A DNA stretch of 64,000 bases from Schizosaccharomyces osmophilus. Taxonomy: Eukaryota; Ascomycota; Schizosaccharomycetes; Schizosaccharomycetales; Schizosaccharomycetaceae. A program made the position numbers and the translations under genes. How positions within the stretch are numbered: position 1 is the first letter of the stretch; each line of letters starts with the position of its first letter. Location of the stretch: NCBI RefSeq assembly GCF_027921745.1, contig NC_079238.1:5270001-5334000 (forward strand), given 5' to 3'. Below, in pieces: positions 2,293 through 63,209 of the stretch. Below the pieces are notes generated by a model. It did not search any database and was not told where the DNA came from. It was given only the letters and a program-made list of their open reading frames with translations.

Positions 2293-4562
2293 ATGTCTAA
2301 GCTTTCTCAACTGCTAAATGCTAGACGAGCTAACCAACAGAATCCCTCTTTGTCAGAATCTTCTGGAAAATTAACTTCTCTTTTGAAATCTCCACCTTCT
2401 TCTGAACAAGAACATTCTACATCTGTGGATCCCGTGCATACAACATCCAATGCTACTGCAGAATCATCTGCTTCTACTTCGCGTATGTACCTATCCATAG
2501 AATCATCCGTAATTTGCAATCTTTCATGTATCATGCTAACCTTGCTAAGACCCTAATGGTCTTTCGAAATTAGCGGCATTGACTGCCCACAAAAAAAAGG
2601 TTGAAAACTTTGAAGACACTCCTAATAAGCGTTCCTTACCGTCTTCCTCTTCCTCTCAATCGGACTCTAATCCAAAGGATTCTTCTGACAAGGAACAATT
2701 GTTACAGCGATTCCGCAAAGTACGTATTGCAGAATCAAAAGAACCTAATGAGGAACCTCATCTTGTCCATCGTCAAGAATCACCGTCTTCTGTACAAAGT
2801 GAAAGACTAGAAGGCATTGAAGATGATCTTACTTCTTCTACGTCGGAAGTCCCGCCCATCCATCTTTCTTCATCGCATACACCTTTGCTAGCTGCCCCGT
2901 CCATCTTTGCTCGATGTCTGACAGGTGCTAAAAAGAAGGCTTCACAAAGTGAAATTAAAGTAAACCTGAAAAGAAGCTCCATTCTTGGCTTTAACACTCC
3001 GAGTCCTGATGACCTCGTTTTGATGGCCCAATCGAAATCCAAGGGTATGACTCAATGTCTTACAAATTCCATTCTAACGTTCTCTTTTTTTTTAGGTTTG
3101 CAAAGATACAGCAAAAAAGACAAGGCCCTGTTTGATTCTCTTGAGCAACTCAAGACTGACAGCCTTCAACAAACCTCGAATTCCATGACTTCGTCGACAG
3201 CAACTAAAGATGTGTTGGTTGATAAAAAGAAGCTTTTGGAAATCTCAAAAGAGATAAAACCGACAACCCGTATTTCAATTTTCGGTCCCCCGAGAGTCGG
3301 TAAGAAGACTCTTTTAGCTCGGCTTTTGTATCAAGTAGGAGCGCTCGACATCAAATTAATGCAAAGATGCACCCTTTTAAACTCTAGAAAAGAAAACATT
3401 TCCTCAGTTCTTGGTCGTAATGCTTCCGACCTTTATCAATTTGAAACGTTTTCGCATAATTACTTGTCTTCCCTTTTTGCCTTACCCCTTCACGACCTTG
3501 CATCGTTTGCACCATTCCTACAAATAACCGATATTGCCATCATTATTATTCATGCAAAATACCCATTAGATGAAATAGAAAGCATTGTTTGCCTGCTACG
3601 ATTATGTTACGGAGAAACCATCAGAAATGTTTTGTTTGTTGTAACTCAAATGGACCAAGTTTCTTGGCAAGAAGAGCAATATCAATCTGCTATTTCGTCT
3701 ATCACGACTTGTCTGAAGGATTTCCATGGCATTACTGTTCCTCCATCCTGTTTTGTGCCAGTTAGTGGATTCAAGGGAGACAATTTGACTACTCTTTCAT
3801 ATGGAACATTACAGTCATGGTACGGTTCTGAAACTTTATTGGGAAAAATTGACGAGCTGTCCGATAAGTCTATGAAAGAAAAGGTCCGTTTGCAACAACT
3901 GCCCTTGTCGTTGTCCATCTCGTCTTGGTCTTTACTCCCAGAAAACAAGATTAGCGCACAATTTGACGTACATTCTGGTATCGTTCAAGCACACCAAAAT
4001 ATTTACACCTCTGTCGGAAAGATTGAGACAAAAGTTCATGGTAAGTCATGTACAAATTCTGATTTATTAACTCATTAGGTCTCAAATTACACCAACATGC
4101 CAAGACGTGGTGTTTACCCGGTGAACATACAGAAATGCATCTATCTTCTCTACCAAATTTATTGTAAGTTGTCCATCTTTGTAGACTTTACTAATTACCA
4201 GGAATGGAACCCTTTGTGTCGATGAAGAAAATGCCTACCATTTATCCCGGAATGCTTATATAACTGCATTCATTTTTCATTCGTTTCTCAAGGAGCAGAG
4301 TCCTGTCCATGTGAATGCCTTCTTTGGTGCTTTCCGTATGAGTGGAAAAGCCTTTTTTTATTCTGAGGGAAAAGAAAATGGTATGGCGTTACAGGGATTG
4401 GACTTTCAGAATAAGAATCTTCTCTTACTTCGGCTAGAGTTGGATCAATCTATTCCCCTTGTAGAATTCAACAATGTACCTTCCCTAAGTCGACTTTTGT
4501 TGCTATCCAAAGAAGAGAATATTTTATTGGCCTCTGGAGTTGTCGTGTCTGTTCAAAAGTAA
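2293..4562 (+). CDS. ski7: Ski7-like protein (Hbs1/eRF3-family translational GTPase relative)
   Basis: Five exons: 2293-2482, 2574-3044, 3096-4040, 4079-4163 and 4202-4562, giving 683 aa; all junctions keep phase. The N-terminal ~250 residues are Ser/Glu-rich and low in complexity, as expected for the Ski-complex/exosome-binding part of Ski7. A G domain follows, with P-loop GPPRVGKKT at about residues 284-292. The usual DxxG motif is not recognisable, and the NKxD position reads TQMD (404-407). A C-terminal part resembling domains 2 and 3 of EF-Tu-like proteins follows. Ski7 links the cytoplasmic exosome to the Ski complex in mRNA decay. The gene sits where S. pombe has its Ski7 gene; Hbs1 is the alternative but should have intact G motifs. 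Confidence 0.82.
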
Positions 4563-45084: not shown

Positions 45085-45386
45085 CTGTAGAGTTAAGTGT
45101 GTCCATAAAAAAAAGAGATAATAAAAATGTAGAATTCTATCGCCATTCATCGCCCTCTTCACCTAATATGAAAGGGATGAACACGAAACGAAATTCCTCT
45201 TTTCAGATATTCATGAAACAAAAATATCAATCCCAGTTTACCTCAGAAAGTCCAAGTGCTACATGATATGAATTTCAGAAGTCTAGCATCTAAAATTAAG
45301 TGGAAATCATCATAGGCAAACATTCTCTTGGCACACAAGAAAGGCTCCTCGCTTTCGTTTGATTATTCGCTTTTTTTTTTACTTAC
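45085..45386 (-). other. Probable intron in the ade4 5' leader
   Basis: On the minus strand a consensus donor GTAAGT starts at 45386, and CTTAACTCTACAG (branch site and acceptor) ends at 45085, 108 bp before the ade4 ATG. The 302-nt interval encloses a well-formed C/D snoRNA. Splicing is predicted by eye only. Confidence 0.5.
45236..45321 (-). ncRNA. C/D-box snoRNA upstream of ade4
   Basis: 86 nt. On the minus strand: terminal stem GTTTGCC (45321-45315), C box ATGATGA (45313-45307), D' box CTGA (45278-45275), D box CTGA (45246-45243), then GGTAAAC (45242-45236), which pairs with the 5' arm over 7 bp with one G-U. Guide candidates are ATGCTAGACTT before D' and GCACTTGGACTTT before D. I could not match either guide to an rRNA or snRNA site from memory. 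The exact boxes plus stem make chance unlikely. Confidence 0.78.
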
Positions 45387-48085: not shown

Positions 48086-48412
48086 AATGGCAATATGGTA
48101 GATATTAATTGGGTTTACTTTTTTGGGTGTTACTTTTATTCTATTGATCAACCTAGTCGAAAGTCAATAAAATATAGTTTCAAGTACTAAGCGCTAGAAA
48201 GCTTCCATTTTCCTTTCCCTTTTTTACACAATTTATCTTTCTCAATTCAATTTTGCACTGTAACGCGGTTCATTCATTCATCTGACCTACTGTATCCTAC
48301 TCCATTCTATTCTTCTCTCTTCTAATCCCAATTTTATACCCTACATGCTCTAAATTTAGGTTAGCAAATCATTCCGAATAAATAAGAAAATGAAAAAGCA
48401 TTGACAATTCAA

Positions 48413-48490
48413 GAAACACTCAGAGATCTTGGTGTATTAGCAAAAAAATCATAAACAAATTCATGAGCAAATATTTCATCACCATGTTCC
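48413..48490 (-). ncRNA. snoU24: snoRNA U24 (C/D box; guides 2'-O-methylation of large-subunit rRNA)
   Basis: 78 nt. Terminal stem GGAACAU / GUGUUUC pairs over all 7 positions with two G-U pairs. The C box GTGATGA is at 48482-48476 and D box CTGA at 48423-48420. The guide before D reads ACACCAAGATCT, as in yeast and human U24 (CACCAAGATC), and the second conserved element AATATTTGCT follows the C box, also as in U24. Both elements together identify the RNA. U24 directs methylation of neighbouring nucleotides in 25S rRNA. Confidence 0.9.
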
Positions 48491-48642
48491 GAAATCGCAA
48501 ACTACTTTTTCATCAAGCAATAAAAAACATACACCTTGAAACCAGTAAAGAAACAGAAGCCGATTCATATATACATCCTGAGCGATGTCGTCCTAAAAGA
48601 GACAGTTAATACATATTCTTTTTTATAAAGAAAGAAATCACT

Positions 48643-48749
48643 GAAAATATCAGAAGAGTATTGCTCGCATGTCGATGGAGCCCATTGGGATCAGGCGAGA
48701 TCCCGAGCTTACCCACCTCTCAATCGCAAATTATTTCATCACAATATTC
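48643..48749 (-). ncRNA. C/D-box snoRNA, unassigned, in intron A of the host unit
   Basis: 107 nt. C box GTGATGA at 48742-48736; D box CTGA at 48653-48650; flanking arms GAAUAUU and UAUUUUC pair at five of seven positions. An internal CTGA is preceded by a hairpin (GGGATC / GATCCC around TCGCCT), so the D' guide may be masked. The guide before D is GCGAGCAATACTCTT. I do not recognise the target. Confidence 0.7.
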
Positions 48750-48890
48750 CAGCAATTTAGAATTCAATAAAATAAAAAAACATACCTCTTAAAAGAGAAT
48801 CCAATTCTCAGACCCTGGACTGAATCATATTTTCCTATTCTTTACACTAGTGAATGGTTGAGAGAAAAAGGGAAGCGCTCGATTGGAAAA

Positions 48891-48896
48891 TTTATA
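48891..48896 (-). promoter_or_regulatory. TATA box of the snoRNA host unit
   Basis: TATAAA on the minus strand, ~110 nt upstream of the first host intron and ~130 nt downstream of the spt20 stop codon. Role inferred from position. Confidence 0.45.
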
Positions 48897-49023
48897 GCAC
48901 AAAATCATCATAAAGATATATACATTCATTATTTTGTAGGCTAAAATTAAAATATATACAATTAAATACAAATTAATTTTTGTGTATTTTCTTCGTAGAG
49001 CATGGAAATCGCTAAACAGCATG

Positions 49024-61100: not shown

Positions 61101-62300
61101 AAAAAGACAAAGAAACAAAAGTTGAGGGATGAGGTGTTGTTAGAAAAAGAGATTCGATTGTTATATCGTGCGATGATCCGGTATGGTCGTCTTCAACATC
61201 GATATAACGACATTGTTAAATACGCAGATCTATCGACCCAAGATGCTCATTTAGTTAAAAAGGTAGCTTCCGACTTGGAAGCGGTATGTCAAAGAGCCAT
61301 CAATGCTGCCGAAAAAGAGGCCAACGCTGAGCAGGCAAACCAAAAGTCTCGAAAAGCACTGTTGATAACTTTTAGGGGAGTAAAAAACATTAATGCTGAA
61401 ACTTTGATTCAACGTTTAAATGATCTTGATGTCTTATATGAAGCAATGCCATCATCAGGATATTCCTCTTTTGAGGTTCCTGTGCATCTTCGGTCTGTCC
61501 ACGGTTGGTCATGTGAATGGGGAAAGCGCGAAGACTCCATGCTACTAGCGGGTATTTGTAAACATGGGTTCGGAGCTTGGCTAGAGATTCGTGATGATCC
61601 TGAATTAAAAATGAAAGACAAGATCTTTTTAGATGATAATAAAGTTGATAATCCCGGAGAGAAGGATAAAGAAAAAGAGAAAAAGGTTCCTTCTTCAGTA
61701 CATTTGGTACGACGAGGCGAATATCTTTTGAGTGCTTTACGAGAATATCACCGTAAGGTTGAAGAAGGCGTTGAAACTCCAAAGCCCGCTCCGAAAAGGC
61801 AGGCCCAAAACAAGAAAGCAGCGAACAAATCAAATAAGAATGGTCAACGCAGTGAAAGTGTAACTCGGACTCCCTCTCCGACGGTTTCTGAATCGCGAAA
61901 GAAACATGTTACTAAAGAAGTGAAATCAGAAGCACTTCATAGAGAGTCGCCTCGCACTTCTGTTGAACCATCCATCAAACAGGAAGAATCTGACCAACCC
62001 GAAGGTGATGGATTGACTAGTGAACAAAAGGCAAGATGCAAGGAGCTGATGTATCCTGTTCGTAAGCATATGAAAAAGCTTCGAAAGGGTTCCACTGGTT
62101 TGGAAAGAACACAACTGGTGAAGCTATTTACGGAGTGTTTAACGACGATAGGAGGACATATAGACGCTACCGTTACAAAACTCCCTGACAATGAAAAGGA
62201 AGCTGTTCGTAAGGATTTGTGGATGTTTGTTTGTTACTTTTGGCCCAAAGATGAAGTCAAATACACTAGTTTGATAACCATGTACCAAAAGATGAAGTGA
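58193..62300 (+). CDS. hrp3: Hrp3, CHD1-type chromatin remodelling ATPase
   Basis: Two exons, 58193-58285 and 58335-62300 (49-nt intron), give 1352 aa. CHD1-type remodellers space nucleosomes over transcribed genes. In order: an acidic N-terminus with an Asp run ([13 protein letters not shown]); two chromodomains at about residues 165-300 ([34 protein letters not shown]); a SNF2 ATPase with [11 protein letters not shown] (~371-381), DEAH box AIDEAHRLK, and [26 protein letters not shown] in the helicase C part; then a SANT/SLIDE-like DNA-binding region and the C-terminal CHD helical domain ([15 protein letters not shown]). S. pombe has Hrp1 and Hrp3; position after prp40 indicates Hrp3. Confidence 0.95.
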
Positions 62301-62835
62301 GATTTAAAGGATGTCTTTATCCTGAAGAATAGTCGGTGCTGTACATGATTCCTTATTTCTACCATATCATGCTTTTCGTTTACTTTTTATATTTTTTGAT
62401 ACCGATATCCAGCTCGATTGTTCATATTTTCCCTTCGTTTACAGCGCTCATAATAATAGATAAATGGACGAGCTAGTGTTTAAATCGCAGCAATCTTAAA
62501 TTTTGTACATGTAATTGATTATTTCTTAATTAATAAAAAAGTCTTGCATTTGTGATGAAATCATTTGAGGAATATGATCTTTCCAGTAGAGATTTCTTGA
62601 CTCCTTTGTTCATAGATTCGAATAAAATTTTTGTCGAAACAGGAAAGCTTCCCTCGTCCATTGGATTACAAGCATACAATAGCTAACGGATAGAAAAGTA
62701 TTTCAAAGTTTGATATTTTTGTTTGTTTATTAAGGATCTTGTCTTGGGGTACACTATTCTACTGAAGGCAGCTACTTTCTAGAAGTTGAAACCTGCAAAC
62801 TTGACCAGTGCAATTACCTACGTTTCTATCAAAAA
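62301..62835. promoter_or_regulatory. Intergenic region, hrp3 end / rpn15 promoter
   Basis: 535 bp. A GTGATGA word near 62552 resembles a C box but has no D box at suitable distance. No other gene seen. Confidence 0.45.
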
Positions 62836-63209
62836 ATGTCGCGCACCGTATTGCCAAGCTTAGAAAGTAAGTGTTTGTGAATCAAGGCCGTAATTGATGT
62901 TTATGTAATCTGTTAGTTCGATCGGCATTGATCCAGTCGTTATAAGAGGATTCCAACTAACGATCTGTGTAGATTTGGAAGATGATGATGAATTTGAAGA
63001 TTTCGCTACAGAAAGTAAGAATTCAGAATGTAAATTGAATTTGAAATGGAGCTAACAATGTGAAAGACTGGCCTATGAAAGATACAGAACTCGACACTGG
63101 CGATGATACCCTGTGGGAGAACAATTGGGATGATGAGGACGTTGGCGATGATGATTTTTCTGCTCAGCTTCAAGCTGAATTAAAAAAGAAGGCAGTCACT
63201 ACGAATTAA
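62836..63209 (+). CDS. rpn15: Rpn15/Dss1 (Sem1), acidic proteasome lid subunit
   Basis: Three exons (62836-62866, 62974-63015, 63067-63209; introns of 107 and 51 nt) give 71 aa, the S. pombe length. The protein starts MSRTVLPSLE and is extremely acidic with spaced aromatics: NLEDDDEFEDFATE, then NWPMKDTELD and LWENNWDDEDVGDDDFS, ending in a helix (QLQAELKKKAV). Dss1/Sem1 is a mostly unfolded subunit of the 19S proteasome lid, a ubiquitin binder, and a member of TREX-2 mRNA export and other PCI complexes. Both introns interrupt codons after position 1. The assignment is beyond doubt from the motif pattern. Confidence 0.96.

Follow-up and report, generated by a model that had tools for sequence, protein, structure and literature searches.

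Gene model in the tif223-spt20 gap

The 64-kb stretch of DNA that was analysed as a whole (the window) contains a gap between tif223 and spt20 in which the minus strand carries two consensus introns (48785-48593 and 48532-48350) that flank an exon of 60 nt. The 3' end of tif223 is similar but not identical to the eIF2B gamma of PDB 5b04 (E-value of 1.1e-58), which we take to be an S. pombe entry; the window would hence derive from a relative of S. pombe and not from this species. At the other side, spt20 matches the Spt20 SEP domain (E-value of 2.3e-45) and lies on the same strand as the putative host gene, with a distance of 127 nt from its stop codon to a TATAAAT box (48890-48896, minus strand). 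This box, beginning at 48896, corresponds to the minus-strand TATA box that an earlier note on this DNA had reported, and is probably the host promoter; no HomolD/HomolE-type box was found. All further elements of the gene model are located on the minus strand as well. Exon 1 (48786-48865) ends at the donor at 48785, while its 5' end is a guess of approximately 25-40 nt past the TATA box. Intron 1 (48593-48785; 193 nt) comprises a GTATGT donor, a TTAAC branch site (48609-48605, branch A at 48606) and a TAG acceptor. Exon 2 (48533-48592) is delimited by the splice signals and is followed by intron 2 (48350-48532; 183 nt), with again a GTATGT donor, a CTAAC branch site (48364-48360, branch A at 48361) and a TAG acceptor. 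Finally, exon 3 (48131-48349), of which the 3' end is putative, carries three signals of the poly(A) type, namely AATGAA twice (48278, 48274) and AATAAAAGTA once (48140). The exon ends proposed earlier (48786/48592 and 48533/48349) are exact according to these splice signals.

Both introns, previously described as having consensus donor, branch and acceptor, were recovered by a strict scan for GTATGT, [CT]TAAC and [CT]AG, which yields only five candidate introns over both strands of the window. An independent scan for C/D snoRNAs (RTGATGA, then CTGA at 50-115 nt, and a terminal stem of 5 bp or more) gives three candidates on both strands, two of which are inside introns 1 and 2. The chance level of the latter scan is a mean of 0.6 candidates (range 0-2) in 20 first-order random sequences, or about 0.0009 per 190-nt intron. 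The two kinds of signals, scanned independently, thus coincide twice. Each intronic snoRNA has a C box (RUGAUGA), a D box (CUGA) and a terminal stem. In intron 1, the snoRNA match ends (48643) at a distance of 37 nt from the branch A; in intron 2, the terminal stem of the snoRNA ends (48413) at a distance of 52 nt, or 54 nt if counted from the Rfam end (48415), in line with the one C/D snoRNA per intron at 37-52 nt from the branch point that had been noted before.

The exons appear to have no coding potential. When the spliced model (48860 to 48090) is read in all three frames, the longest ATG-started open reading frame found has 14 amino acids, which agrees with the middle exon having been called non-coding. 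One could argue that a small functional peptide is translated from the spliced RNA, with the snoRNAs as mere passengers; the 14-aa frame is what such a reading would have to build on, and as the three frames hold no longer ATG-started one, we deem it highly improbable. A longer frame of 65 amino acids on the same strand (49022-48825) starts just past the spt20 stop codon and ends in exon 1. It would be absent from the host RNA because its start precedes the TATA box.

The proximity of spt20 brings in a second reading, in which both introns are situated in a long 3' UTR of spt20 and the host is the spt20 mRNA, a protein-coding transcript read through to approximately 48140-48270. The shared strand and the distance of only 127 nt between stop codon and TATA box are in its favour. 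Introns so far beyond a stop codon would, however, be expected to destabilise an mRNA, which argues against this reading. Moreover, a likely poly(A) signal of spt20, AATGAATGTA (48921-48930, minus strand), is present upstream of the host promoter, and the minus strand has no other AAT[AG]AA in the 127 nt from the spt20 stop codon to this box. The signal has the composition described for fission yeast poly(A) signals, being AAU[A/G]AA followed by GUA (PMC6195540). Together with the poly(A)-type signals of the host itself, its position ahead of the TATA box favours a separate gene, and a long spt20 3' UTR is considered unlikely.

Intronic C/D snoRNAs and their predicted rRNA guides

At gathering scores, Rfam returns no match in the whole 64-kb window. 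Both intronic snoRNAs score below the gathering cut-offs of their families, so a routine scan reports nothing, and these sub-gathering scores illustrate how such genes may be missed. Folding energies of the snoRNAs alone are not distinctive (z-scores of -1.23 and -0.56). To assign guide targets, rRNA was retrieved from contigs of prokaryote genomes with an 18S fragment as query, which gave nine records. Three of these were submitted to Rfam and all three contain eukaryotic SSU rRNA, including a complete 18S of 1800 nt (L089). For the large subunit, a fragment from another eukaryote was available (L001), which Rfam identifies as LSU_rRNA_eukarya over 389 nt. As a control for the guide matches, this 18S and the L001 contig together were shuffled 60 times; the target covers 389 nt of LSU rRNA, a minor part of 25S.

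Intron 2 contains U24 (SNORD24; 48415-48488, minus strand), with its C box at 48482-48476, its D box at 48423-48420 and a terminal stem of 7 bp. The match to Rfam SNORD24 (RF00069) covers the full length with 39.8 bits (gathering score of 41) and an E-value of 6.4e-5 in 1501 nt. The guide upstream of the D box, CACCAAGATCT (48424-48434, minus strand), pairs over 11 bp with LSU rRNA such that position 5 faces a C taken as 25S C1437. The D+5 register for the C1437 equivalent was read on the 389-nt fragment, where the numbering was derived from the distance of 12 nt to A1449. None of the 60 shuffles gave an anchored match as long. A second element, AATATTTGCT (48466-48475, minus strand), pairs over 10 bp with the A1449/G1450 region, a length equalled in one of 60 shuffles. 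U24 is known to target Cm1437, Am1449 and Gm1450 (PMC5199042, PMC8817022). The present snoRNA shares with U24 the C/D boxes and the two antisense elements that are conserved. The difference lies in the D' box, which is out of register here for Am1449/Gm1450: the nearest D'-like box, ATGA (48464-48461), would point to A1452. A role of U24 as a double guide is therefore not supported by the sequence, which does not lower the case for C1437 as its target. Note that a non-canonical C'/D' motif has been described for yeast U24 (PMC5389607) and that U24 and U24b of S. pombe are reported as separate guides (PMC2780460). As judged from these matches, the U24 assignment appears firm. A longer intron 2 snoRNA, beginning at the first C-like box (TTGATGA, 48516), was considered and rejected, as the D' TTGA of snR87 reads TTTC there; its predicted fold is also a little weaker than that of the average shuffle (z-score of 0.45).

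The snoRNA of intron 1 (48643-48750, minus strand) is of the snR87/U16 type, with a C box at 48742-48736, a D' box TTGA at 48723-48720, a D box at 48653-48650 and a terminal stem of 6 bp. It matches Rfam snR87 (RF01216) over the full length with 25.7 bits (gathering score of 37) and an E-value of 0.077 in 1501 nt, or 0.0099 when only the 193 nt of intron 1 are scanned. A second match in intron 1 is Afu_514 of A. fumigatus (RF01515; 20.1 bits, E-value of 0.06); its consensus and the intron 1 snoRNA share the guide TAATTTGCG, the TTGA box and the sequence CTCGCC. This guide (48725-48733, minus strand) pairs over 9 bp with 18S 433-441 and puts A436 opposite the base five positions upstream of the D' box, a D'+5 register that is exact on the full-length 1800-nt 18S. 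In S. cerevisiae, snR87 is the guide for Am436, and U16 is that for the equivalent human site (PMC5199042, PMC8817022). Anchored matches of this length turn up in 13 of the 60 shuffles, and the guide assignment is accordingly not firm by length alone; it rests on the register, the family match and a hairpin. The latter is an internal hairpin, GGGATC-TCGCCT-GATCCC (48687-48704, minus strand, as predicted by folding), that corresponds to GAACA-CCGCCA-TGTTC in the Rfam consensus of snR87, with the loop core CGCC kept and a different stem. The same GAACA-CCGCCA-TGTTC hairpin is contained in a probe sequence for S. cerevisiae snR87 (PMC5389607). In sum of its likeness to snR87/U16, this snoRNA has the A436 guide beside the C box, the CGCC-loop hairpin and a nearly identical length (108 versus 109), while the stem of the hairpin and a large part of the 3' half are different and the score remains below gathering. 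It represents a candidate 18S-Am436 guide in a fission yeast. A second guide-like element in this snoRNA, CGAGCAATAC (48667-48658, minus strand), forms 10 bp with 18S 778-787 in a D+5 register; six of 60 shuffles match as long, and this pairing is taken as chance level.

Proposed release of the snoRNAs and possible origin of the two introns

The explanation that we hold to be quite probable is a non-coding snoRNA host gene of the UHG type, with its own TATA box, that is spliced twice and whose introns are trimmed to the snR87/U16 relative (18S-Am436) and U24 (25S-Cm1437). RNA polymerase II would transcribe this short minus-strand gene, downstream of spt20 and convergent with tif223, from its own TATA box. 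The host transcript would be spliced twice and its exons thrown away, upon which the excised introns may be debranched and trimmed to C/D snoRNAs that are shielded by their terminal stem and by snoRNP proteins. Intronic snoRNAs are indeed described to depend on lariat debranching (PMC9606315). The snR87/U16 relative would then guide methylation at 18S-Am436 and U24 at 25S-Cm1437. The earlier proposal that the introns and not the exons are the product gains support from the snoRNA families with their rRNA guides, the short open reading frames and the poly(A)-type signal of spt20 ahead of the TATA box.

An alternative route would release the snoRNAs without splicing, either because RNase III (Pac1) cuts stems in the flanks or because U24 is transcribed from a TATA sequence in exon 2, the splice signals being secondary. 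Exon 2 does contain a TATATA (48573-48568) that could serve U24 alone. Both introns are also predicted to fold into long stems, interrupted by loops and bulges, that continue the terminal stems of the snoRNAs. In intron 1, the predicted 5' arm (48747-48784, minus strand) covers the donor and faces a 3' arm at 48612-48646; in intron 2, the 5' leader (48484-48514, minus strand) is one arm of an external stem that extends the terminal stem of U24, with the 3' arm at 48389-48419. The flank duplexes count 30 and 36 pairs, and dinucleotide shuffles are as strong in 5 and 8 out of 1000 cases, respectively. Pac1 is reported to cut stems of at least 20 bp with small bulges (PMC12508059), which would suit such duplexes. 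Against this, flank duplexes as strong are found in 40 of 299 real window frames of 193 nt and in 14 of 299 of 183 nt, and whole-intron shuffles fold as well in 18 of 300 (intron 1) and 111 of 300 (intron 2). The long external stems, as modelled, are suggestive only. With complete splice signals in both introns, release without splicing seems improbable, and splicing of a non-coding host stays the favoured route.

The two introns resemble each other in a further respect. The earlier note had pointed to their similar start, GTATG followed by a T run. This start is present, but it is that of an ordinary donor and proves little, so that it was discarded as evidence; a stretch further downstream is more telling. 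The leader of intron 2 and the start of the snR87 relative have TATTG..TGATGAAA..TARTTTGCGATT in common. A likeness of this level is reached in 6 of 5000 cases with the leader shuffled and in none of 5000 with both shuffled. Among 18,274 window frames of 42 nt, 29 score as high, of which 19 overlap the snR87 relative itself, six the leader of intron 2 or the beginning of U24, and four a single other place near 62,550 on the plus strand. The start of U24 likewise resembles that of the snR87 relative (5/2000 for whole introns), in part because both have a C box and AT-rich guides. The resemblance of the intron 2 leader to the snR87 start is suggestive only, and to regard this leader as a possible relic of an intron duplication that is now a stem arm is a guess from sequence. 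A fuller version can be formulated, in which the two-intron host arose by duplication of an intron bearing snR87. Intron 2 would then keep a decayed 5' end of snR87 upstream of U24, with the C box and the A436 guide but without the D' box, and this relic would have been re-used as an arm of the external stem. Both stems would act as splice-independent release sites for Pac1 (RNase III), backing up splicing and masking the donor of intron 1. We regard this scenario as unlikely. A further sequence similar to the beginning of the snR87 relative is TGTGATGAAATCATTTGAGGAATATGA on the plus strand (62550-62580); Rfam gives no match at an E-value of 1 in 62300-62900.

Relation to known snoRNA hosts

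The locus appears real by its sequence and is well explained, and its layout is itself known from fungi and animals. In animal UHG and GAS5 genes, the product stems from the introns and the exons are non-coding. The present gene has the same organisation with two introns only, and common descent is not claimed. The comparison with these animal genes is also made in the fungal literature: in N. crassa, five non-coding snoRNA clusters are described as most like animal UHG genes, which are cited there (PMC2780460). Across fungi, 323 of the 460 analysed snoRNAs of clusters I-III are predicted to lie in introns, and the species covered include S. pombe, S. japonicus, S. octosporus and S. cryophilus; in S. 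cerevisiae and species closely related to it, these clusters remain unspliced (PMC3596301). The idea that this layout is uncommon in yeasts, as voiced in the earlier note, finds no support in these two reports. The fungal clusters (I-III, and I-V in N. crassa) share with the present locus mostly one C/D snoRNA per intron, non-coding exons and canonical splice signals, but they are described with another content, namely snR72-78, snR57-55-61 and snR41-70-51, and a U14 cluster in N. crassa (PMC3596301, PMC2780460). The snR87-U24 pair would join the known fungal non-coding snoRNA hosts. No snR87-U24 host was found in the texts consulted on fungal snoRNA hosts, which is a weak negative, as the 2018 fungal snoRNA survey was outside this search and the flanking gene names tif223 and spt20 were not queried.

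Within fission yeasts, a close described case is the mamRNA/snR107/snoU14 locus of S. pombe, likewise a previously unannotated long non-coding RNA with an intronic C/D snoRNA released via splicing (PMC11971394, PMC12508059). That locus has one intron, with snoU14 in the following exon and a Pac1 hairpin across the exon-exon junction, whereas both snoRNAs are intronic here. A comparable exon-exon hairpin was not found by folding, the longest helix of the spliced model being 12 bp. Fission yeast snoRNA lists are incomplete, as eight expressed C/D candidates of S. pombe were newly found with SnoBIRD (PMC12309372). Sources also disagree on the genomic context of these genes: most C/D snoRNAs of fission yeast are intron-encoded according to PMC2780460, while 81% of all fission yeast snoRNAs are non-intronic according to PMC12508059. 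Unannotated hosts such as the snR87-U24 gene could explain part of this disagreement.

The third candidate of the C/D scan is situated elsewhere in the window (45321-45236, minus strand), upstream of an open reading frame with glutamine amidotransferase and phosphoribosyltransferase matches (purF/ade4-like). It has a C box at 45313, a D box at 45243 and a 7-bp stem (GTTTGCC/GGTAAAC), and a GTAAGT donor at 45386 is present that is not followed by a good branch site. Rfam matches it to snoR64/Z200 with 30.5 bits (gathering score of 45; E-value of 7e-4 in 501 nt). The D' guide of this candidate can form 13 pairs, one of them G-U, with positions 2576-2588 of another contig (L086), a stretch unconfirmed as rRNA.

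Scans of viral contigs with an 18S fragment returned nothing in one case and 79 loci in another, none of the 79 in an 18S context. Three prokaryote genome records (L089, BMQD01000062.1; L082; L088) have eukaryotic rRNA inside. L089 is labelled Planomonospora and holds the full 1800-nt 18S, a 5.8S and an opposite-strand 5S, an arrangement known from Saccharomyces. The LSU fragment, in turn, originates from an IMG/VR 'viral' contig (L001), where eukaryotic LSU rRNA occupies positions 4115-4503 at the contig end.
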